This document shows positions 6,280 through 33,676 of a stretch of 35,792 nucleotides of DNA, piece after piece. Every line of letters starts with the position of its first letter. The first letter of the stretch is position 1. Below the pieces are notes generated by a model, which was given only the letters and a program-made list of their open reading frames with translations, had not been told where the DNA came from and searched no databases. Origin of the DNA: a virus. Position numbers and translations under genes: made by a program. Location of the stretch: positions 1 to 35,792 of the IMG/VR virus record IMGVR_UViG_3300035661_000186. One strand, given 5' to 3'.

Positions 6280-6308
6280 TTGACTTTAAATGCTAAATAG
6301 CGTATAAT
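6280..6308 (+). promoter_or_regulatory. Sigma70 promoter
   Basis: TTGACT (6280-6285) and TATAAT (6303-6308) are 17 bases apart. It follows gene 5975 directly. The 60 bases before the next promoter hold no open frame, so it probably reinforces the RNA unit beyond. Confidence 0.88.
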
Positions 6309-6402: not shown

Positions 6403-6633
6403 TATGAATTGGGAAAGACGGACTTCTCCAACCTACAAAACGCGATTGCTAAGATGCCCCCGCTCTTATGCTCAGTTCAGACATACCACGAGTTTCGGCT
6501 ATCTCTCAGAAAAGATAGCCACCTTTTATATACTTTACCGTATATGCGCTACTGATAGTAGAGTACATAAAAGGGTGTTTCAATGGTAATCTACGTATCC
6601 ATAAAAACTTAATTGCTAGTGAAACGTGCCCTA
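6403..6633 (+). ncRNA. Promoter-driven structured segment upstream of the tRNA-Tyr element
   Basis: There is no credible gene here: the only open frame starts at the transcription start without a ribosome-binding site. Visible hairpins are GGCTATCT/AGATAGCC (6497-6520) and CCTTTTAT/ATAAAAGG (about 6522-6574, with an inner CTACTGATAGTAG). AATGGTA at 6582-6588 can pair with TACCATT at 6632-6638, which competes with the long stem of the next element. The 3' end is undefined. Confidence 0.45.
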
Positions 6634-6857
6634 CCATTTAGTAATATACCTATCGAAGAACTAAGTATCCGCCTCTGCGCTACTCCCCAAATGAGTTAGG
6701 CAAGCACCTGGGCAAGTTGGTCGGTAAAGGTTATATCTATATACTTGCGCAACTTTACTACTAGCTATAATACAGATGCGCTTGATTTAGATACGACTAA
6801 GTCCGATGATTCCTACTTTGGGCAATGGGATGACAAGATAGGTATATTACTAAATGG
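6634..6857 (+). ncRNA. Stem-bounded structured RNA 1 (21 bp terminal stem)
   Basis: Bases 6634-6654 and 6837-6857 form a perfect 21 bp inverted repeat enclosing about 180 bases with no gene. The right arm runs two bases into tRNA-Tyr, so the helix and the mature tRNA cannot coexist. Cleavage of the stem (RNase III) or at the tRNA 5' end (RNase P) may separate them; this is inference. Confidence 0.6.
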
Positions 6858-6939
6858 AGATGTAAACCGCTAAGGAGGCGGGGCAGTCTGTAAAACTGTC
6901 GCTTCGGCTCTGTTGGATCGTTACCATCCATCTCCACCA
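6856..6939 (+). tRNA. tRNA-Tyr (anticodon GTA)
   Basis: The acceptor is GGAGATG/CATCTCC, with A73 and an encoded CCA. The anticodon loop is CTGTAAA, and there is a long variable arm as in bacterial tRNA-Tyr. The T-loop is ATCGTTA instead of TTCGAAT, so positions 54 and 58 are swapped (A54, T58). Confidence 0.9.
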
Positions 6940-6954
6940 TATATAATAGTATTT

Positions 6955-7157
6955 TTAATAAGTAGAAGCATAGCTAGTGCCCCCTAATCTGGGGGAAACC
7001 TTGCTGGTAAAGTATTGAGGTGTGCACACCAAAATATACCAATTCCATGTAGAGTTTAGTAGATATACTAATAGCGGATGTAGTTGGTTGCGCCAACGAA
7101 AGCACTCTCTAGAGATTGTTAATAATTTCTGTAGTAAACTGTGCTTCTACTTATTAA
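6955..7157 (+). ncRNA. Stem-bounded structured RNA 2 (19 bp terminal stem)
   Basis: Bases 6955-6973 pair with 7139-7157 (18 of 19 Watson-Crick, one G-T). Inside are CCCCC/GGGGG, the palindrome GGTGTGCACACC and TTGG/CCAA hairpins. It begins 16 bases after tRNA-Tyr and ends just before the promoter at 7166. An open frame inside (from 7022) has no ribosome-binding site. Confidence 0.58.
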
Positions 7158-7165
7158 AAATAGAC

Positions 7166-7194
7166 TTGACTCATAAGTTAAAAGGCTGTATAAT
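7166..7194 (+). promoter_or_regulatory. Sigma70 promoter
   Basis: TTGACT (7166-7171) and TATAAT (7189-7194) are 17 bases apart. It drives the 37-residue gene at 7218 and the tRNA genes after it. Confidence 0.88.
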
Positions 7195-7217
7195 TATTCT
7201 TTAAATGAGAGAATTAT

Positions 7218-7331
7218 ATGAAACCTCGTAATAAGGGCATTGTGCCTATGTTAGCACGAAAACAGGGCCCGCATGGTAAGACTTTTAAAGCCATGCGTAG
7301 GCAATCAAAAGTAGAGTTAATGCGCGTATAG
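7218..7331 (+). CDS. Small basic protein, 37 residues, overlapping tRNA-Lys
   Basis: ATG 7218 follows GAGAG. The product begins MKPRNKGIVPMLARKQGPHG and is strongly basic, suggesting RNA binding (inference). Its stop TAG at 7329-7331 lies inside tRNA-Lys, so the last codons are shared with the tRNA acceptor stem. Confidence 0.65.
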   Translation: MKPRNKGIVPMLARKQGPHGKTFKAMRRQSKVELMRV

Positions 7332-7397
7332 CTCAGCGGTAGTAGCAGCCGGCTTTTAACCGGCAGGTCATCGGTTCGACCCCGATTGCGCGTACCA
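7322..7397 (+). tRNA. tRNA-Lys (anticodon TTT)
   Basis: The acceptor is GCGCGTA/TGCGCGT with two wobbles, the anticodon loop CTTTTAA and the T-loop TTCGACC; CCA is encoded. Its first ten bases overlap the preceding gene. Confidence 0.93.
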
Positions 7398-7412
7398 TTA
7401 AATTTAATAAAT

Positions 7413-7533
7413 TTGGAATCTGGTGTAAACGCCCAGCTTAGGACTTAGTAGACGGCAGGGAACATGCTTCTCTGAAACCAGTACGAAAAGATAATCTAGA
7501 AAAATACTTCCTACTAGTGAAGCTAGATTCCAA
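7413..7533 (+). ncRNA. Stem-bounded structured RNA 3 (9 bp terminal stem)
   Basis: TTGGAATCT (7413-7421) pairs with AGATTCCAA (7525-7533). An inner stem joins CTTAGTAG near 7450 with CTACTAG near 7511. There is no open frame and no T-loop. It lies between tRNA-Lys and the next stem-bounded element. Confidence 0.45.
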
Positions 7534-7545
7534 TTTTATTAGATT

Positions 7546-7767
7546 TAATAAGTGGTAGTAATACCTTTTAAGATATCAAGATATGTTCAATGGTTTGGGT
7601 GAGCTGTTGGGGCAATAATTCCTACTATTATGAACTACTAAGATAGATTTGAAGGGGTAGCAAATTATTGAGCTTCATTGAGTGTTAGGGCAGTGGTAAC
7701 CACCCAACCCACATGCCTTCCCCAGGAATGTTGCTTTATATAGTCTACCAATTACTACCACTTATTA
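7546..7767 (+). ncRNA. Stem-bounded structured RNA 4 (17 bp terminal stem)
   Basis: Bases 7546-7562 and 7751-7767 form a perfect 17 bp stem (core AGTGGTAGTAAT) around about 190 gene-free bases with further hairpins, such as GTGG/CCAC near 7695. It ends nine bases before tRNA-Glu, so cleavage of the stem would also free the tRNA precursor. Confidence 0.58.
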
Positions 7768-7776
7768 GATTTTTAT

Positions 7777-8459: not shown

Positions 8460-9368
8460 ATGAAATACCCTGATAAATTGATTGCGGTTGGTATGAAATA
8501 CCAGCCGGAAGCGCAAAATTTTCTGCGTAGTATATCTCCTAAGTACCCAGTCTCTATCTGGAGAGAGTCAAGTGGAAATGGTACTACAAATGAAGTAACT
8601 TATGCAGTTACTGCATTTATTGCGGGTGGATCCTCAATAAGGCTTGGATACATTAGAAATATAGATATACCCCTGCTAGATAGACCCAGCTATCATAATG
8701 TATATGAAATCACTTCAATACGGACTAATTATCTGATACTTAAACCAAGTGATAGTATATCAAGTGATAATGTACCAAGCGATAATGCTTGGGATGTGCC
8801 TAAATATGATGAAATACCTGATAAAAAGGAAACTAAAATGAATACAAGCTCTATGCGCGACTCTTTTTTCCGTGAAGTAAAGAATGCTGTACTTGATATC
8901 ACTACTGGTAGTTTTGGTATTGTAACTGCTGATGGTATTTCAGTGTATAAAGATGGTGCAGTATCTGTAAATCCTCTAGTAGATATGGGTGTTAAAGTAC
9001 CTGCGTTCGCCATGCGGGTAGACGTTGCTACATTGACTGAGGGCGACATTATCCTTAACGGCAATACTACCTACTTCTACAAAGGTAAGACCGAAACTGG
9101 TTATGAAATAGTTGCAATGAACGGAGAAGTAAAGCAAGTAGGCGCAGTTACTAACCTGTTCTTTGGTAAGAATACCGTTCTAGCTATTAAGAATATGATG
9201 GCGGGTACTGGCATGAATCCCCTGATCATGGCTATGATGATGGGTGACACTGAAGGTAAGGGTTTCAATATGAAAACTTTTGCTATCATGAGTATGCTGG
9301 GTGCTAAATCAGAAAATGGTGGAATGGATAGCAATATGCTGATGATGATGCTTATGATGGACAAGTAA
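8460..9368 (+). CDS. Two-part hypothetical protein with Met-rich tail
   Basis: The 302-residue protein has two unlike halves. Residues 1-126 look alpha/beta and end in a Ser/Asp-rich linker (SISSDNVPSDNAWDVPKYDE). Residues 127-302 begin MNTSSMRDSFFREVKNAVLD and contain a beta-rich domain (GIVTADGISVYKDGAVSVN). The tail has many Met residues (MNPLIMAMMMGD, MLMMMLMMDK). An AAGGAA sequence stands before Met127 (8838), so the second half may also be made separately. I recall stand-alone relatives of the second half in other phages. The function is unknown. Confidence 0.7.
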   Translation: MKYPDKLIAVGMKYQPEAQNFLRSISPKYPVSIWRESSGNGTTNEVTYAVTAFIAGGSSIRLGYIRNIDIPLLDRPSYHNVYEITSIRTNYLILKPSDSISSDNVPSDNAWDVPKYDEIPDKKETKMNTSSMRDSFFREVKNAVLDITTGSFGIVTADGISVYKDGAVSVNPLVDMGVKVPAFAMRVDVATLTEGDIILNGNTTYFYKGKTETGYEIVAMNGEVKQVGAVTNLFFGKNTVLAIKNMMAGTGMNPLIMAMMMGDTEGKGFNMKTFAIMSMLGAKSENGGMDSNMLMMMLMMDK

Positions 9369-9397: not shown

Positions 9398-9426
9398 TTG
9401 ACTTTAGTTGCTGAATAGCGTATAAT
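9398..9426 (+). promoter_or_regulatory. Sigma70 promoter of a small RNA
   Basis: TTGACT (9398-9403) and TATAAT (9421-9426) are 17 bases apart. The expected start near 9434 coincides with the left arm of a closing stem, and no gene follows before the next promoter at 9599. Confidence 0.9.
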
Positions 9427-9433
9427 ATTATTT

Positions 9434-9597
9434 ATAGATTGGGATAGCCGTACAGCCTTGCGTAAGATTTTCTTTTCTTATAACCGTTCTGGTAAAACGG
9501 GTTGTGTAGAGGAACAACTTCTTACAATACGCTGGCCGCGATAAAGAGGGTACAACTATACAATACCAGTATATTAGAGGCCACTTTCCCAATCTCA
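9434..9597 (+). ncRNA. Promoter-driven structured RNA of about 160 bases
   Basis: The ends close perfectly: AGATTGGGA (9436-9444) with TCCCAATCT (9587-9595). Inside, GCC plus GCGTA can pair with TACGC plus GGC, and CCGTT/AACGG forms a 5 bp stem with a 7-base loop (CTGGTAA) like an anticodon arm. GGTA/TACC forms another hairpin. There is no open frame with a ribosome-binding site, and the RNA is framed by two promoters. Confidence 0.6.
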
Positions 9598-9598
9598 C

Positions 9599-9627
9599 TT
9601 GACTTTAGTAACTGAATAGCGTATAAT
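9599..9627 (+). promoter_or_regulatory. Sigma70 promoter of the large RNA
   Basis: TTGACT (9599-9604) and TATAAT (9622-9627) are 17 bases apart. Transcription should start near 9635 and meets no convincing gene until 10420. Confidence 0.9.
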
Positions 9628-9635
9628 AGATTTAT

Positions 9636-10388
9636 AAAGTGATAGAAACCATCTGATGACTCTAGTATAGAGCATGTTTAAGTACATGGACTATTGAAAT
9701 ATAGTCGAAACATTGGCTGATGGTGTAGCCTTATTAAGGCAGCTCCAGCCATTGTAATGGTAAAGATCACGAAGTGCGGAAAATGGATAAGCCGCTAGTA
9801 CCGCCGTGTAAGCCAGGGACTGTACTCAGCCAGTCAGAGCGAGAGATTACAATGCGGAGACCTACTATAGTTCTAAAAGGCCCTATATTGTTCCTAGTTA
9901 CCATTAGGATTAGATATAGAATAATTACTCAGAACCGTGATACCCTAAATATACTTTAACGTAGGCCTTTTCACCGGAGCTAGCTCGCAAGGTGAATTCT
10001 AGGAATCCTGCAGTTAAAGTATGACTCTGATGTCTCCAAGAGTATAAATATGTGAGAATATGGTACTGACAGCGTACTAGAGGATTTCTTAGCTAGTCTC
10101 TATAATCCTATATAACTATGCAACCCACCCGTGGTTGGCCTGGTAAGTGAAACGGTATACCTGACGAGGTACGTGCTTATTGATTACCGATAAGAGAAGA
10201 CACGAGAGACTACTGAGGAGTTCTTCGACCTTTTAGTAGTCTAGGTATACTGAGTGGCCCCCGCATCGCCACCTTAAATATTCTACGGACGCGGTAAGTT
10301 ACGACAGCGTTAAAACTCAATCAGTACAGACGTAAGGTATACGTCTATAAAAATAATCCCGTAAGCTACGGCTTACGTTATTATTTTT
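9636..10388 (+). ncRNA. Candidate large ornate RNA, about 750 bases
   Basis: The segment has a promoter at one end and a terminator at the other and no credible gene. Pairings seen: 9648-9653 with 9719-9724, enclosing three consecutive hairpins (9660-9672, 9673-9688, 9689-9706); 9750-9758 with 9846-9854; 9951-9960 with 10013-10022, enclosing 9970-9975 with 9991-9996; 10155-10161 with 10244-10250; and 10207-10214 with 10235-10242. Size, phage setting and tRNA neighbourhood recall the GOLLD and ROOL RNA classes, but identity is untested. Confidence 0.55.
10349..10388 (+). terminator. Intrinsic terminator with UACG tetraloop
   Basis: AAAAATAAT (10349-10357) pairs with ATTATTTTT (10380-10388), and GTAAGC pairs with GCTTAC around the hyperstable loop C(TACG)G. 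The U-rich 3' arm ends the large RNA. Confidence 0.85.
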
Positions 10389-10419
10389 GTTAGAGTAATA
10401 ACGTAAGCTGGAGAATACT

Positions 10420-10617
10420 ATGAGAGTAAGGAAAATACATCGTTATGTAATGGTTTCTACCCCTACTAAATCCATAACTATCTTAGAAGATATTGACGGC
10501 TGGTTTTATATCGCCAAACTTCCTATAGATCAGTATAACACTTGGTCTAGTATTGAAGAGATTGAGCAGTATTTGGGGGTTAAAATTAAACCCTATGATA
10601 TAAAGGAAGTATGGTGA
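10420..10617 (+). CDS. Small hypothetical protein, 65 residues
   Basis: ATG 10420 follows GGAG. The basic N-terminus (MRVRKIHRYVMVSTPTKSIT) leads into a beta-rich domain and a helix (WSSIEEIEQYLGVKI). The family is unknown. It overlaps the phosphoesterase gene start by seven bases. Confidence 0.7.
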   Translation: MRVRKIHRYVMVSTPTKSITILEDIDGWFYIAKLPIDQYNTWSSIEEIEQYLGVKIKPYDIKEVW

Positions 10618-11357
10618 AAGTAAAAATCCTATCTGATCTACATTTACTTCCTATGGAAGCCTATTGGGGGTTTGTATACCAAGATAATGGTGAAAGTATC
10701 TGTATTCTAGCAGGGGATATTGCCGAAGGTATGGCAGGAGTAATATGGGCTGAACGATATATTCCTAATCATATTCAGGTACTATATGTACCAGGGAATC
10801 ATGAATACTATGGGGAGAATTACCAAACCTTAAATGGTAAATTCAGAGACTATAATACACAGGGTTCTCATGTTAAAGTACTACTAGACAGTGTACATAC
10901 CATTCAAGGGCGTAGATTTGTAGGTACTACATTATGGACTAACTTCAAACTATATAATAATCCACTCAGCCCTGTACAGTGGAAACAAGGTCTAAATGAC
11001 AGTGTCTATATTAGGTATAATGATTACGTATTTCAGTCAGATGATATGGTGTCCCTAAATAGGGCATCCCTTAAATTCCTAGACAATACTGAGGGAGACG
11101 TATTAATTACCCACTATTGTCCAAGTACTAGTGATATTACAAAATATCGGGGTAATGTTCTTACTCCAAGTTTTATGACAGAGATTCCTGAGGGTATCCA
11201 CAATAAGTTTGCTTATCATATTCATGGGCATACTCATTGCTCTCTAAGGTATAAAGTGCCTAGAGGTCCTGAAGTTATCTGTAACCCCCGAGGGTATGTT
11301 AGTAAGTATGGTACTGAAAATCCTGAGTTCCAATCTGATCTGATTATTGAGATTTAA
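10611..11357 (+). CDS. Calcineurin-like metallophosphoesterase
   Basis: All family motifs are present in the 248 residues: SDLHL (Asp9, His11), AGD (Asp36), GNHEYY (Asn63, His64) and HGHTH near residue 209. They should bind two metal ions and hydrolyse phosphoesters. Protein phosphatase, nucleotidase or RNA end-processing activity cannot be decided from sequence; phages of the T5 group carry similar enzymes near tRNA genes. ATG 10611 has AAAGGA upstream and overlaps the previous stop. Confidence 0.88.
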   Translation: MVKVKILSDLHLLPMEAYWGFVYQDNGESICILAGDIAEGMAGVIWAERYIPNHIQVLYVPGNHEYYGENYQTLNGKFRDYNTQGSHVKVLLDSVHTIQGRRFVGTTLWTNFKLYNNPLSPVQWKQGLNDSVYIRYNDYVFQSDDMVSLNRASLKFLDNTEGDVLITHYCPSTSDITKYRGNVLTPSFMTEIPEGIHNKFAYHIHGHTHCSLRYKVPRGPEVICNPRGYVSKYGTENPEFQSDLIIEI

Positions 11358-11544: not shown

Positions 11545-11578
11545 ATTATTTTAAGTCGCAATAACAAAGGAATTTAAC

Positions 11579-11812
11579 GTGATCCCATTTCTAGTAGAGT
11601 ATCGTACAGATTATGATACTGATTGTGGTGGTAGTGCTGTTGTATACGCAGAAGATGAAGGTGAAGCACTAATTAAGTCTGAAGATTACTGCCAAATTAA
11701 AATCTCTGAGGAAATAGATGATACTGACGCAGATTTCTCTGTCAATATCCTAGTTAGGGAGTTTAATAACCTAGAAGATGGCGATATTCGTGATTATGAA
11801 GTAATTGACTAA
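11579..11812 (+). CDS. Small acidic hypothetical protein, 77 residues
   Basis: Translation starts at GTG 11579 with AAAGG eight bases before; there is no in-frame ATG. The protein (MIPFLVEYRTDYDTDCGGSA…) is strongly acidic with an alternating beta pattern, like small phage proteins that mimic nucleic acid or bind host enzymes. That role is only a suggestion. Confidence 0.7.
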   Translation: MIPFLVEYRTDYDTDCGGSAVVYAEDEGEALIKSEDYCQIKISEEIDDTDADFSVNILVREFNNLEDGDIRDYEVID

Positions 11813-11830
11813 GCATTAAAAATTTTAGTC

Positions 11831-11859
11831 TTGATTAATTTTCCTTAATGGCGTATAAT
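11831..11859 (+). promoter_or_regulatory. Sigma70 promoter
   Basis: TTGATT (11831-11836) and TATAAT (11854-11859) are 17 bases apart. It drives the gene at 11884 and probably the tRNA cluster after it. Confidence 0.88.
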
Positions 11860-11883
11860 ATATCTTTAAGTGGGAGAATAAAC

Positions 11884-12078
11884 ATGGCAGGATACACTAA
11901 AGAGTTTTTGGTTGATGCCTACCTCTCCAGATTTTTAAAAACTGCCAGCATTGAGGATCTCGTACAGCTAGAAGCTGATGCTATTAAACTGTATGATCGA
12001 GTAGGTAAAGATCAGTTTCGTAAGTACGCATCACTTGATGCTGAGGCTATTGCAAATGCGCGAACTTTGGTTGGCTAA
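11884..12078 (+). CDS. Small helical protein, 64 residues
   Basis: ATG 11884 (MAGYTKEFLVDAYLSRFL) follows GGGAG. An upstream in-frame start would lie within the promoter and is rejected. The protein is entirely helical in appearance, with no known family. The next gene starts inside its 3' end. Confidence 0.7.
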   Translation: MAGYTKEFLVDAYLSRFLKTASIEDLVQLEADAIKLYDRVGKDQFRKYASLDAEAIANARTLVG

Positions 12079-12277
12079 AGATGAAGCACTTATTATCTTT
12101 GATACTAGAGAGTACAAGGAAATTTTAGGTTGTCCTAAATTCGAGTCAGATGTAGTAGTACAGTTAACAGATAATGAGTACGCTGATTATTGTAGGGTTC
12201 TAGCGGAGTTCTATACTTGGCAGCGTAGATTTGAAGATTTAATAGCGGGTTCCGATAGTCGGACGGCAGCCTCATAA
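12056..12277 (+). CDS. Hypothetical protein, 73 residues, ending inside a tRNA
   Basis: ATG 12056 is preceded by GAGG and overlaps the previous gene by 23 bases. The product begins MRELWLAKDEALIIFDTREY. The reading frame runs 34 bases into the following CAT tRNA, and its TAA stop is formed by the anticodon-loop bases, so the last residues (GSDSRTAAS) are a by-product of tRNA sequence. Confidence 0.6.
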   Translation: MRELWLAKDEALIIFDTREYKEILGCPKFESDVVVQLTDNEYADYCRVLAEFYTWQRRFEDLIAGSDSRTAAS

Positions 12278-12316
12278 GCTGCTTGGGATAGGGAGCGTTA
12301 CCCTAGCCCGCTTCCA
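12244..12316 (+). tRNA. tRNA with anticodon CAT, copy 2, atypical T-loop
   Basis: The acceptor is AGCGGGT/GCCCGCT, with discriminator T and an encoded CCA. The anticodon stem is GCAGC/GCTGC with loop CTCATAA. The T-loop is AGCGTTA, lacking the TTC motif and swapping bases 54 and 58, as in tRNA-Tyr here. Confidence 0.82.
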
Positions 12317-12641: not shown

Positions 12642-12646
12642 TTTAG

Positions 12647-12813
12647 TAGTATTTATAGATAGCAGCGAGGGCAGTTCGTCGAAATAAGACGTTTGTTTAA
12701 GGTAGCCAATGGAAGACCCCATATGGGAATTGGTAAATATCGGGACTTACGAGTTGATATCCGGTTGGGAACACATTAAACGACTGAGCGACCTGGCCTA
12801 TCTATAAATACTA
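12647..12813 (+). ncRNA. Stem-bounded structured RNA 5 (16 bp terminal stem)
   Basis: Bases 12647-12662 and 12798-12813 form a perfect 16 bp stem. Within it, CAGTTCGT pairs with ACGACTG around a bulge, and two hairpins follow: CCAAT…CCCATATGGG…ATTGG, and ATATC…ACT-TACG-AGT…GATAT. There is no open frame. It fills the space between tRNA-Gln and tRNA-Asp. Confidence 0.6.
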
Positions 12814-12817
12814 TTTT

Positions 12818-13222: not shown

Positions 13223-13263
13223 AAACTAATATGCATGTTCCCAATTCTCAATATGGAAAGAAA

Positions 13264-14580
13264 ATGTCAAGCCTGAATAAAAAAGCAAATACTCGTACTG
13301 AAATGACTCACGAAGGTGCTATGGTACGTCCTATCAGTGCAGAAGCACAACTAGAGCGTATGACCCTGGCCGCAATGCTATGGGAAGATACCTTCTATGT
13401 AGATGGGGTTACTTTAGCTGAAAAAATCAAGGAACTTGTAGTTAAAGTTCCTACTGACAAAGTACAGGCGCTTGCTGTGAAAGCACGTACTGAATTTAAA
13501 CTTCGTCATATCCCACTGCTATTAGCCCGTGAATTGGCTCGTGGTGGACGGCTGACCGCATCTGGTCTGGATGCTGTAATTCAGCGTGCAGATGAAATGG
13601 GCGAGTTTATGTCTCTGTACTGGTCTGAGGGTAAGACCGCAGTTTCTGCACAAGTGAAAAAAGGTCTTGCAAAAGCCTTCGTTAAGTTTAATGAGTATCA
13701 GCTTGCTAAGAATGATAAAAACTCTGCTGCAGTATCGGTACGTGATGTGATGTTTATTTCGCATCCAAAGCCTACTAATGATGCCCAGGCTGAGATGTTC
13801 AAGCGTGTAGCTAATAAAGAGTTAAAAACTCCTGACACTTGGGAAGTAGCTCTTTCAGCCGGAGCAGATAAAAAAGAAACCTTTAGCCGTTTAATGGAAG
13901 AAGGTAAATTGGGTGCGCTTGCGTTCCTTCGTAATTTGCGTAATATGATTAACGCAGGAATTACTGAAAAAGAAATTCGTGCATATGCCCGTAATTTGAA
14001 CGTAGATATGGTTCTGCCATTCCGCTACGTTTCGGCAGCTAAGATCGTTCCACAACTGGAAGATATGCTGGAAGAAATGATGCTACGTTCACTGGAACAT
14101 GCTCCTAAACTTCCAGGTCGTACAGTGCTTATGGTTGATGTATCTGGGTCTATGTGGCATGGTACTGTTAGTGCTAAGTCAGACCTAACCCGTTTCGATG
14201 CAGCAGCTGCACTAGCTATGATGGCTCGTGAAATATGCGAAGAAGTAGCAGTATATACTTTTAGCAATTGCCTAGTTAAAGTTGCCCCTCGTCGCGGATT
14301 TGCAGTAAGCGAGTTACTATCTAACTCGCAAGTACATGGCGGGACTTACTTAGGTAACGCTATGCAAGAGTTAAATATTTATGAGACGTATGATCGTGTA
14401 ATTGTTTTCACGGATGAGCAATCTGCAGATATAGTCCCTAATCCAAAAGGTAAAGGTTATATTCTTAATGTAGCGTCTTATGAGAATGGTATTAACTCTG
14501 GTGCATATACTACTATTACCGGCTTCTCAGAAGCTGCTTTAGAGTATATTCGCCTAAGCGAAAAATCTAGCGAAAGCTAG
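13264..14580 (+). CDS. rsr: Ro60/Rsr-like TROVE domain RNA-binding protein
   Basis: The 438-residue protein has the two-part Ro60 architecture. Residues about 1-270 are the helical TROVE ring (THEGAMV near the start, then LLLARELARGGRLTASGLDA). Residues about 280-435 are a von Willebrand A fold with the metal-ion site DVSGS (Asp292, Ser294, Ser296) and VIVFTDEQ. Ro60 binds Y RNAs on its outer surface and misfolded RNA ends in its ring; in bacteria it works with PNPase in RNA maturation and decay. I chose ATG 13264, preceded by GGAAAG; ATG 13231 has no ribosome-binding site. A Y RNA-like gene lies directly downstream. Confidence 0.9.
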   Translation: MSSLNKKANTRTEMTHEGAMVRPISAEAQLERMTLAAMLWEDTFYVDGVTLAEKIKELVVKVPTDKVQALAVKARTEFKLRHIPLLLARELARGGRLTASGLDAVIQRADEMGEFMSLYWSEGKTAVSAQVKKGLAKAFVKFNEYQLAKNDKNSAAVSVRDVMFISHPKPTNDAQAEMFKRVANKELKTPDTWEVALSAGADKKETFSRLMEEGKLGALAFLRNLRNMINAGITEKEIRAYARNLNVDMVLPFRYVSAAKIVPQLEDMLEEMMLRSLEHAPKLPGRTVLMVDVSGSMWHGTVSAKSDLTRFDAAAALAMMAREICEEVAVYTFSNCLVKVAPRRGFAVSELLSNSQVHGGTYLGNAMQELNIYETYDRVIVFTDEQSADIVPNPKGKGYILNVASYENGINSGAYTTITGFSEAALEYIRLSEKSSES

Positions 14581-15516: not shown

Positions 15517-15607
15517 GGAGGGGCAATCCGACTGGTGACGGAAGCGCTCTTGAAAAGCGTCGAGGCCTAATAAGCCCTTGTGGGTTCAACTCCGACCCCC
15601 TCCGCCA
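15517..15607 (+). tRNA. tRNA-Ser (anticodon TGA)
   Basis: This is a type II tRNA with acceptor GGAGGGG/CCCCTCC, discriminator G, anticodon stem GCGCT/AGCGT with loop CTTGAAA, a long variable arm, T-loop TTCAACT and an encoded CCA. Confidence 0.95.
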
Positions 15608-15645
15608 GATAAAAGTTAATGAAGTACGCACACTGCTATAGATGA

Positions 15646-15769
15646 GGGGTAGTGATTCGATACTACCATTTTAAAGTTGTCTACTTGCCCGTCCGAAAAA
15701 GACGCGGAAAACTATTAGAGAAAGAGGTTCAAATCCTCGGGACTGGTAGACAGCTTTAAAATGGTAGTA
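15646..15769 (+). ncRNA. Stem-bounded structured RNA 6 (24 bp terminal stem)
   Basis: Bases 15661-15684 pair with 15746-15769 over 24 positions with one G-T, the longest stem in the window. The 61 bases inside contain a T-arm-like hairpin GAGG-TTCAAAT-CCTC and GTC/GAC. A 5' hairpin GGTAGT-GATTCGAT-ACTACC (from 15648) uses the same bases as the left arm, as in the Y RNA gene. It lies between tRNA-Ser and tRNA-Cys. Confidence 0.6.
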
Positions 15770-15772
15770 AAT

Positions 15773-18311: not shown

Positions 18312-18584
18312 ATGAAGATTATGAACTTTACCTATACTAAACCTGATGGTAAAACTAGTAAGCGTACATTCGTATCTATTCGTTCACCATTCACAGATTA
18401 TTTTGGTGTAGATATTAGCGAATTGAGTGAAGAGGATCAAGCTATCTTTACTGCTGAAATGCAGAGTATTGAAGATGCTAAAACTAATGCTATTAATGAA
18501 CTAATGGCGGAGTTTGATGTAAAAAATAACTACCGTAAGTTTCTAGCAGAACGTATGTCTGATATTTCAGTAGAGGATATCTAA
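18312..18584 (+). CDS. Hypothetical acidic protein, 90 residues
   Basis: ATG 18312 follows AAAGGAAA. The product (MKIMNFTYTKPDGKTSKRTF…) is beta at first and then an acidic helix (SELSEEDQAIFTAEMQSIED). A perfect hairpin (GAGGATAT-CTA-ATATCCTC, 18573-18591) spans the stop codon and may attenuate or process the transcript before the tmRNA. Confidence 0.7.
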   Translation: MKIMNFTYTKPDGKTSKRTFVSIRSPFTDYFGVDISELSEEDQAIFTAEMQSIEDAKTNAINELMAEFDVKNNYRKFLAERMSDISVEDI

Positions 18585-18596
18585 TATCCTCAGTAA

Positions 18597-18850
18597 ATGG
18601 TTGTAAACATTAAAGTAAGGCGCTCAAGACGCGGAGTGCAAATCTCCGCCAGATCCACCAGTAAGTGTACTAAATAGTATACTTACTAATGGGTCTGATC
18701 TAGTTTCGATTGGGTGAGATAGGATAAATGCAACCCGCTATGTAAAGCGTTAAAACAAAAAACTATAAACGCAAACGATGAAGTTTACGCTTTAGCTGCT
18801 TAAGCTAAAGTAAGGTTCCGGCTCTCTCCCTTATTACCAAATAGAGAGCC
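18597..18850 (+). ncRNA. ssrA: Circularly permuted (two-piece) tmRNA
   Basis: The acceptor piece comes first: T-arm and CCA end (…GACGCGGAG-TGCAAAT-CTCCGC…CAGATCC-A-CCA, to 18660). An excised spacer with a 12 bp hairpin (18660-18688) follows, then the coding piece from GGGTCTG (18691). GGGTCTG pairs with CAGATCC (18650-18656), keeping the alanine identity pair G3-T70 and A73. The tag frame at 18771-18803 encodes ANDEVYALAA and a stop; E. coli has ANDENYALAA. Helix 2 forms across the pieces (18710-18716 with 18621-18627, and AATGCAACC with GGTTG…CATT). A pseudoknot (18811-18815 with 18829-18833, interleaved with 18820-18827 and 18843-18850) follows the tag. tmRNA with SmpB frees stalled ribosomes and marks the unfinished protein for proteolysis. 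Confidence 0.93.
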
Positions 18851-18885
18851 AATACATATGGGTATTAGTAATACTCATATGTATT
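18851..18885 (+). terminator. Hairpin between tmRNA and tRNA-Thr
   Basis: AATACATATG (18851-18860) pairs with CATATGTATT (18876-18885), with an inner GTATT/AATAC stem. It has no T run, so it is more likely a processing or protective hairpin than a terminator. Confidence 0.6.
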
Positions 18886-29158: not shown

Positions 29159-29355
29159 AGAAGTGCTTTGAACTTGAACAAGAGATACTAGACTGCTGGG
29201 GCATTGTTGATGATATTGATATTCTTTTAAGTGGTATTAAGGATAAAGATATACCAATTAATAATATTTGTAATATCTTAATTGGTCTACGAGATTTATA
29301 TACTTTGAGATTCGAAAAGGCACTTGAAACACTTAAAGAAGGAATAAATAAATGA
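29155..29355 (+). CDS. Small phage protein, 66 residues
   Basis: The product (MKKCFELEQEILDCWGIVDD…) has the FELEQEILDCWxxVDDID motif of a widespread small phage family. It is acidic and helical. Coupled overlaps join it to both neighbours. Confidence 0.75.
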   Translation: MKKCFELEQEILDCWGIVDDIDILLSGIKDKDIPINNICNILIGLRDLYTLRFEKALETLKEGINK

Positions 29356-30299
29356 CCCTAACGCAATACTTAGATAATTGCTCTCGCCACTATTATAATG
29401 GGGATCCCATTATTAGTGACGAGGTTTTTGATCGTCTAGCAGATAGTATTGGATACTCTAAGATCGGGGCAAAACAGCATGAGCATATTCAAAAGCACTA
29501 CTATCCTCTTTATTCCCTACAAAAGTTTTATGAGGGGGAAGGTAAAGTTAACCCCCTAGAAGGGGAGAAGGACGTATCTATCTCCCCTAAGCTTGATGGT
29601 GCTGCTATTTCTATCCTGTATGTTAATGGAGAGCTAGTACGTGTCCTTACTCGTGGCGATGGTATAGAAGGTACGGATATAACTGATAAGTTTATTGGTT
29701 CTACTCTAATACCACAGACGCTACATCATAGTGGAGTACTGCAAATTACTGGAGAAGTTGCAGCTCCGGCAGTAGTACCCAATTCCCGCAACTATGCTGC
29801 AGGTGCTTTAAATCTTAAAGATCGCAATGAGTTTAAAACTCGTAGTGTAGAAGTATTTGTATACGGTATGCAGCCAACATACAATGAGACTTACAACGAA
29901 GATATAGCAATGCTTAAACGCATGGGTTTCAATACAGTAAAAGATGATCTAATTACTGAAATCTATCCTACAGATGGTGTAGTATTTCGTGTAAATAATA
30001 ATAAACGCTTTGCTGAGCTAGGGTATACTTCACTATTCCCTAGGGGTGCTTATGCACTTAAGACTAGAGGAGAAGCTGTTGAGACTACTATATTAGATGT
30101 AGTATGGCAGACGGGTAAATCTGGTAAAGTAACTCCAGTAGCAATACTTGAGCCAGTGTATATTGGCGACAAATTAGTAAGTAAAGCTACACTTAATAAT
30201 CCGGGGTTTATTGAAATGCTGGATATTCAAATAGGTAGTAAAGTAGGAGTAATTCTTGGAGGAGAGATCATACCATGCATTGTCCACAAGGTAGAGTAA
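29352..30299 (+). CDS. ligA: NAD-dependent DNA ligase, adenylation subunit
   Basis: The 315-residue protein contains the nucleotidyltransferase motif SPKLDGAA with the catalytic Lys80, RGDGIEGTDIT near 100, GEVAAP near 135, and the DGVVFRVNN and YALKTRG motifs, followed by the beginning of the OB fold. The zinc finger, helix-hairpin-helix and BRCT parts are missing here and occur in the gene at 32933. T5 has the same kind of split. It seals nicks using NAD+. Confidence 0.92.
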   Translation: MTLTQYLDNCSRHYYNGDPIISDEVFDRLADSIGYSKIGAKQHEHIQKHYYPLYSLQKFYEGEGKVNPLEGEKDVSISPKLDGAAISILYVNGELVRVLTRGDGIEGTDITDKFIGSTLIPQTLHHSGVLQITGEVAAPAVVPNSRNYAAGALNLKDRNEFKTRSVEVFVYGMQPTYNETYNEDIAMLKRMGFNTVKDDLITEIYPTDGVVFRVNNNKRFAELGYTSLFPRGAYALKTRGEAVETTILDVVWQTGKSGKVTPVAILEPVYIGDKLVSKATLNNPGFIEMLDIQIGSKVGVILGGEIIPCIVHKVE

Positions 30300-32932: not shown

Positions 32933-33676
32933 ATGAAAATACAAATTCCTACTAATTGCCCCTGCTGCGAGTACCCCTTGATCAAGGTGAACGACCAGCT
33001 CTTCTGCCGTAATACTGCGTGCTCAGCGCAAGTCAACGGAAAGTTACAGCACTTCGCTAAGACTTTGGGCATTAAAGGACTTGGTGAAAAGAGTATAGAA
33101 AAATTAAATCTCTCAGATCTGACCGAGTTGTTCTATCTTGATCCAGTAGAAACTGGAAGGCTACTAGGAAGCGAGAAAGTAGCCCTTAAACTACTGGATG
33201 AAATCGAAAGAGCAAAATCGGCATCTTTAGCAACAGTACTAGCATCTTTTTCTATTCCCCTTATTGGGAATTCTGCTAGTAATAAAATAGCTCCACTAGT
33301 AAGTAATATTGATGATATAACCTTGGAGATATGTAAAAAAGCAGGACTTGGGGAAAAAGCAACAGCCAATCTTATGGATTGGATTAACACGGAGTATCAA
33401 GAGTTAAAAGAATTTTTACCTTTTTCTTTTGAAACTCCATGCAGTAAGCCAGTAGATGTAAATGCAAAAACAGTATGCATTACTGGAAAATTAAAGTCCT
33501 TTAAAACTAAAGCGGAAGCAACAAATATTCTAATAAATGCTGGTTTTAGGGTAGTAGAAAATATAACAAAAACAACCAACTACCTAGTTGATGAGGACAA
33601 TAAAAATAGTTCTAAGCGAAAAAAAGCTGACGAATATGGTATCACAATCATAACAAATCTTCTTGATTTGATTTAA
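32933..33676 (+). CDS. ligB: NAD-dependent DNA ligase, C-terminal subunit
   Basis: The 247-residue protein holds the parts missing from the ligA gene: a four-Cys zinc finger (CPCC near 9-12, CRNTAC near 26-31), helix-hairpin-helix motifs (LGIKGLGEKSIEKL, then FSIPLIGNSA and CKKAGLGEKAT), and a C-terminal BRCT domain (VCITGKLKSFKTKAEATNIL). It should assemble with LigA into a working ligase. ATG 32933 follows a purine stretch (AGAGAAG). Confidence 0.92.
   Translation: MKIQIPTNCPCCEYPLIKVNDQLFCRNTACSAQVNGKLQHFAKTLGIKGLGEKSIEKLNLSDLTELFYLDPVETGRLLGSEKVALKLLDEIERAKSASLATVLASFSIPLIGNSASNKIAPLVSNIDDITLEICKKAGLGEKATANLMDWINTEYQELKEFLPFSFETPCSKPVDVNAKTVCITGKLKSFKTKAEATNILINAGFRVVENITKTTNYLVDEDNKNSSKRKKADEYGITIITNLLDLI

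Follow-up and report, generated by a model that had tools for sequence, protein, structure and literature searches.

A gene-free stretch of the phage DNA analysed here (the window: 35,792 nucleotides, IMG/VR record IMGVR_UViG_3300035661_000186) appears to hold a noncoding RNA gene, whose conserved 5′ domain of about 133 nt is plausibly, and on balance probably, derived from a type I hammerhead self-cleaving ribozyme or still active as one. The distinctive part of the stretch is this predicted hammerhead-type junction, which the earlier note on the DNA had not named. The promoter, the terminator, the absence of a gene, the junction fold, the core letters and the conservation come from the sequence and from predictions made on it, and from these transcription and cleavage may be inferred. 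Comparisons were made mainly with the close relative IMGVR_UViG_3300035661_000228 (loci L003, L004, L005 and L034; hereafter L003), the only one found in the collections searched. The main features are as follows:

9427–9598, + strand: upstream gene-free structured RNA of about 170 nt, closed by AGATTGGGA/TTTCCCAATCT, behind a promoter at 9398–9426 that lies 200 bp upstream of the one at 9599 (z −3.2)
9599–9627, + strand: sigma-70-type promoter, TTGACT-17-TATAAT (11 of 12 consensus positions)
9634–10388, + strand: predicted noncoding transcript of about 755 nt, bracketed by promoter and terminator and without a gene, its start placed from the −10 box
9639–9771, + strand: 5′ domain with the hammerhead-like junction, closed by the outer stem GUGAU/AUCAC (unconstrained minimum free energy fold)
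9945–10163, + strand: non-conserved middle of about 212 nt, in place of which L003 has about 860 nt with a GIY-YIG ORF (L003 positions 11556–12305)
10164–10348, + strand: moderately conserved 3′ segment (15 of 226 sites, 6.6 %, differ from L003 over 10164–10390)
10349–10388, + strand: intrinsic terminator with a UACG tetraloop closed by C-G

The predicted transcription unit and its surroundings

As part of the genome of a T5-like phage, the window includes genes for a D5-like regulator, NrdA, NrdB and an NAD-dependent DNA ligase, the last split into two (29352–30299 and 32933–33676) with about 2.6 kb between them. It also contains about 20 tRNA genes, a tmRNA and a TROVE/Ro60-like protein with a von Willebrand-type domain (13231–14580), relatives of which are found in many phages (Xanthomonas, Brevundimonas, Caulobacter and crAss-like). 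The stretch is flanked on one side by an ORF of unknown function (8460–9368) and on the other by a small ORF (10420–10617) followed by a metallophosphoesterase gene (10611–11357).

The consensus promoter claimed in the earlier note was confirmed, and further copies were found at 9398–9426, with the same hexamers and spacing, and at 6280–6308, with three mismatches, none being expected by chance. The promoter zone (9592–9627) does not differ from L003 at any site. The UACG-tetraloop terminator was likewise recovered, as CGTAAGC-TACG-GCTTACG (10360–10377) within an A-tract/T-tract stem. Transcription would start at about 9634, behind the promoter at 9599–9627, and end at this terminator. The view that no credible gene lies between the two also held, the longest ORF on the + strand having 61 codons with a GTG start (9774–9959) and no Shine-Dalgarno sequence being seen before it. 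A noncoding RNA unit beside the phage tRNAs is thus supported by the promoter, the terminator, the absence of a gene and the sequence constraint in the 5′ half. Read-through RNA might form another hairpin within 10371–10418, in which the terminator's 3′ arm pairs with 10396–10408, just upstream of the ribosome-binding site of the ORF at 10420.

The earlier description of the stretch as structured RNA stood for the first ~140 nt and the terminator and failed for the whole length. The fold of the whole 757 nt had z = −5.1 (−2.8 with the terminator removed), within the range of twelve coding stretches of 707 nt from the same phage that served as controls (z −5.4 to +1.1). The first 142 nt (9634–9775) had z −4.5, whereas 9776–10340 had −1.2 on its own and the non-conserved middle −0.8. 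Although numerous stems are possible on paper, structure above chance is confined to the first ~140 nt and the terminator. In phages of this kind the fold energy of a whole stretch says little in favour of an 'ornate' RNA, since coding sequence gives equal values.

The upstream RNA differs from L003 at only 1 of 166 sites over 9427–9592 (p = 2e-6 against pooled fourfold-degenerate sites), which indicates strong constraint. No terminator was found between it and the next promoter, and it is probably either an RNA in its own right or the beginning of a longer transcript that reads through. Gene-free segments are also present between the tRNAs (6634–6857, 6950–7162, 7397–7549, 7543–7770, 12646–12815 and 15604–15770), several with long near-perfect terminal stems of 15–25 bp and with z from −3.8 to −9.0 where folded. 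These segments resemble a series of closed-stem noncoding RNAs placed among the tRNAs, and similar ones are visible in the divergent sibling phage L012 (below). In the gene-free parts of 6404–7772, 1120 sites are identical to L003 and several nearby genes differ by 6–9 %, reflecting either recent recombination or very strong constraint. A stretch resembling tRNA-Tyr by eye (6865–6939), with a similar one in locus L017, was reported by neither ARAGORN nor Rfam. The sequence at 15517–15603 was assigned to tRNA-Sec by Rfam and is probably a tRNA-Ser, since its anticodon as read by eye is TGA. The tmRNA (18545–18871), not reported by ARAGORN, has a circularly permuted, two-piece layout, matches the Rfam models beta_tmRNA and tmRNA_permuted and has the tag ANDEVYALAA as read from the sequence; the tmRNA_permuted model was also matched in loci L006 and L007.

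The hammerhead-like 5′ domain

The elements of the domain, in order, are:

9648–9652, + strand: 5′ strand of stem I, ACCAU, with its partner AUGGU at 9757–9761 (fold and descriptor)
9653–9659, + strand: core block CUGAUGA (sequence and descriptor match)
9660–9688, + strand: 29-nt insertion that separates CUGAUGA from stem II and forms two hairpins, CUCUA/UAGAG and CAUGU/ACAUG (sequence and minimum free energy fold)
9689–9706, + strand: stem II equivalent, hairpin GACUAU-UGAAAU-AUAGUC (pair probabilities 0.96–1.00)
9707–9710, + strand: core block GAAA (sequence and descriptor match)
9711–9754, + strand: stem III, CAUUGGCUG ... CAGCCAUUG, with an inner hairpin (fold and descriptor)
9755–9756, + strand: predicted cleavage dinucleotide UA, cut after 9756 (position required by hammerhead geometry)

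The junction is the unconstrained minimum-energy fold of both the full 757 nt and the domain alone, with pair probabilities of 0.70–1.00. Stems I and III, both of which a hammerhead requires, are formed in the predicted fold, stem I with 5 pairs and stem III with 8 pairs and one U.U mismatch. The junction positions hold the required letters, CUGAUGA, GAAA, U16.1 and H17, including the A15.1–U16.1 pair. L003 has the same junction fold within 0.3 kcal/mol of its minimum. Its cleavage site is UC rather than UA (9756 A>C), which lies within the permitted H and is the only change in that dinucleotide, and a change in stem III (9740 C>T) keeps the pair as G-U.

Stem II does not directly follow CUGAnGA in the window and L003, the 29-nt insertion lying between them, whereas known hammerhead alignments have at most 1–2 nt inserted at this place (PMC10085705). 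Since an insertion of this kind is unknown in hammerheads according to the literature, activity of the window copy is doubtful. The domain is similar to type I hammerheads (Rfam RF00163 and relatives), of which Bcep176 and PaP3 are phage examples (Perreault et al. 2011, PMC3088659), in CUGAUGA, GAAA, the U-H site, the three-way junction, the open stem I and its intergenic position in a phage. It differs from them in the two-hairpin insertion of the window and L003, in the large structured loop of stem III, and in being part of an RNA of about 755 nt from promoter to terminator that the Rfam models do not recognize; the hammerhead models gave no match at E ≤ 10 in the window or L012. Type II and type III layouts were also looked for, and neither the window nor any sibling locus that was scanned had one.

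The likeliest mechanism is RNA processing. After transcription from about 9634 and folding of the 5′ domain, the RNA would, if the domain is active, be cut between 9756 and 9757, yielding a folded 5′ fragment of about 123 nt with a 2′,3′-cyclic phosphate and a 3′ fragment of about 632 nt with a 5′-hydroxyl end, and the unit would act as an RNA-processing device. Circularization of the RNA by RtcB was considered and is unsupported, no RtcB having been found in 20 related records, which are possibly fragments.

Conservation, relatives and specificity of the motif

The 5′ part of the RNA differs from L003 at 11 of 311 sites (3.5 %). Fourfold-degenerate sites differ at 94 of 903 (10.4 %) over 13 genes, and at 32 of 225 (~14 %) in three adjacent genes. 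The 5′ part is under constraint, since it diverges less than the pooled fourfold sites (p = 9e-5); the 3′ segment is not significantly slower than these (p = 0.10). Because the middle is exchanged for a GIY-YIG endonuclease gene in L003, the RNA may be regarded as modular, with a conserved 5′ domain and a variable tail, the 3′ part probably being a loosely constrained module that tolerates a homing endonuclease gene. Phage tRNAs often have free-standing homing genes as neighbours. L003 resembles such cases in having a GIY-YIG gene within the unit, whereas the window has an unrelated sequence of 212 nt in that place.

The divergent sibling L012 (IMGVR_UViG_3300046000_006185), a T5-like phage found through its TROVE gene, shares ATAGTCGAAACAT with the window, and CTGATGA lies upstream of it in both. 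In L012 the motif reads CUGAUGA-GACU..AGUC-GAAA-CAUAUAG..CUAUAUG-UA-AAGA, in a gene-free region behind a promoter, with the stems UCUU/AAGA (I), GACU/AGUC (II) and CAUAUAG/CUAUAUG (III) and the same core letters as in the window. The letters of stems I and III differ between the window and L012 and pairing is possible in both, in a comparison of three sequences of which two are close relatives. Stem I of L012 has 4 pairs before a mismatch, with a predicted probability near 0. Its stem II is canonical and directly follows CUGAUGA, the 29-nt insertion being absent. With its insertion, the window copy may be weakened or dead; the core of the L012 copy is intact. Outside the motif, the window and L012 RNAs aligned no better than shuffled sequence. 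A 3′ pseudoknot UAAGU/ACUUA, common to L003 and L012, was dropped, because one of its pairs is mismatched in the window and the alignment was not significant.

A descriptor with at least 5 pairs in stem I and at least 8 in stem III, one mismatch being allowed in each, was run on both strands of 3.22 million bases of fetched DNA. It matched in four places, namely the window, L003, L012 and one place in L022, stem II also being present only in L012. Looser cut-offs added a handful of places in real sequence, and 1.43 Mb of shuffled sequence gave no match under them, the motif having been picked out by eye before these chance tests. In IMG/VR, CTGATGA-N35-65-TAGTCGAAACAT was found in 8 places, the contigs of L003 and L012 and six with coding-like surroundings. 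Among the TROVE-anchored loci scanned (L006–L033 and L050–L106), the motif was found only in L003 and L012. In 20 whole sibling contigs a pattern with a gap of 10–40 nt had no match, and one with a gap of 41–70 nt matched the contig of L012 and one place in that of L059. The latter (L114, 54296–54354, minus strand) is a CTGATGA-N-GTCGAAAC match without the TAGTCGAAACAT continuation and is coding-like by eye.

The whole-contig DNA search gave strong matches to the contig of L003 (E 1e-149 and 7e-100); four other contigs matched only in short pieces at chance level. Searches of phage records with the window and L012 RNAs gave short chance-level matches only, and when IMG/VR was scanned with 17-mers taken from both the 5′ and 3′ halves and from the upstream RNA, the contig of L003 and unrelated matches were obtained. 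No divergent relative of full length was found in these searches, and a literature search yielded no paper that links self-cleaving ribozymes with the tRNA regions of T5-like phages.

Alternative explanations and significance

A dead or structural remnant, that is, a hammerhead that lost catalysis and serves the noncoding RNA as a stable cap at its 5′ end or as a fold for protein binding, is a tentative alternative, appreciably less probable than not. It accords with the insertion in the window and L003 and with a domain that is constrained and stable all the same. In the window, GACU, the stem II strand of L012, comes directly after CUGAU, as though GAGA had lost GA, and catalysis was possibly lost by such a 2-nt GA slippage (CUGAUGA-GACU in L012 against CUGAU-GACU in the window). 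This arrangement favours a core that was broken and kept for its fold; against it, neither close copy has lost any of the catalytic core letters, and the single substitution at the cleavage site is of a permitted kind, a weak argument given the few differences. The opposite possibility, a natural hammerhead with two hairpins between CUGAUGA and stem II that is catalytically active within the phage noncoding RNA, is rather unlikely.

The earlier note had proposed that the stretch is a member, or a new class, of the very large ornate RNAs, such as GOLLD and ROOL. In the Rfam comparison of the window, L003, L012 and the upstream gene-free zone, at gathering score and at E ≤ 10, only tRNA, tmRNA and chance-level matches were obtained, and membership of GOLLD, ROOL, HEARO or OLE was rejected, since no family matched at E ≤ 10. 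The RNA resembles GOLLD in being phage-encoded, near tRNAs, of comparable length, noncoding and partly variable, and ROOL in being phage-encoded, near tRNAs and several hundred nucleotides long. In contrast to GOLLD, it has no family-model match and no demonstrated conserved 3′ domain and is well structured only in the 5′ domain; in contrast to ROOL, it has neither a family-model match nor an intricate conserved fold over the whole length. A new class that works like GOLLD or ROOL through a whole-molecule fold, perhaps a homo-oligomeric cage, would fit the length of about 755 nt, the RNA's own promoter and terminator and the tRNA-rich phage, GOLLD and ROOL often being found near tRNA islands (PMC12286853). 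It was judged improbable, as the 3′ part is not unusually stable, coding controls equal the whole-length z, an ORF takes the place of the middle in L003, and detectable homology with the sibling is limited to the hammerhead-like motif. Hardly more can be said for the stretch or the neighbouring closed-stem RNAs being Y-RNA-like partners of the TROVE/Ro60-like protein, an explanation given slightly less probability still. The TROVE domain lies 3 kb downstream and several closed-stem RNAs are present in the region, but Rfam gave no Y-RNA match and most of the TROVE phage loci scanned lack this RNA; the co-occurrence of TROVE and the RNA is itself biased, since it was mainly the TROVE gene that led to the relatives. 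The GIY-YIG ORF within the unit in L003 could recall a self-splicing intron with a homing endonuclease, intact in L003 and a remnant in the window, but this is very improbable, as no group I or group II intron model matched at E ≤ 10 in the window or L003 and no gene is interrupted. Least probable is an unrecognized small protein gene or genes. Its candidate would be the 61-codon ORF, which has no visible ribosome-binding site and the upstream of which is equally conserved. Its differences from L003 fall 1, 2 and 4 times at codon positions 1, 2 and 3, too few for showing coding constraint, and of the codons that differ, 3 do so synonymously and 3 non-synonymously; codon-position conservation was looked for between the window and L003 and was not seen.

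If the 5′ domain is active, the known tolerance of the hammerhead core would be wider than hitherto described, and a T5-like phage would have a self-cleaving ribozyme among its tRNA genes. If it is inactive, it would be an example of a ribozyme that has become a structural domain of an RNA, and together with the L012 sibling and its canonical core it would form a testable evolutionary pair.
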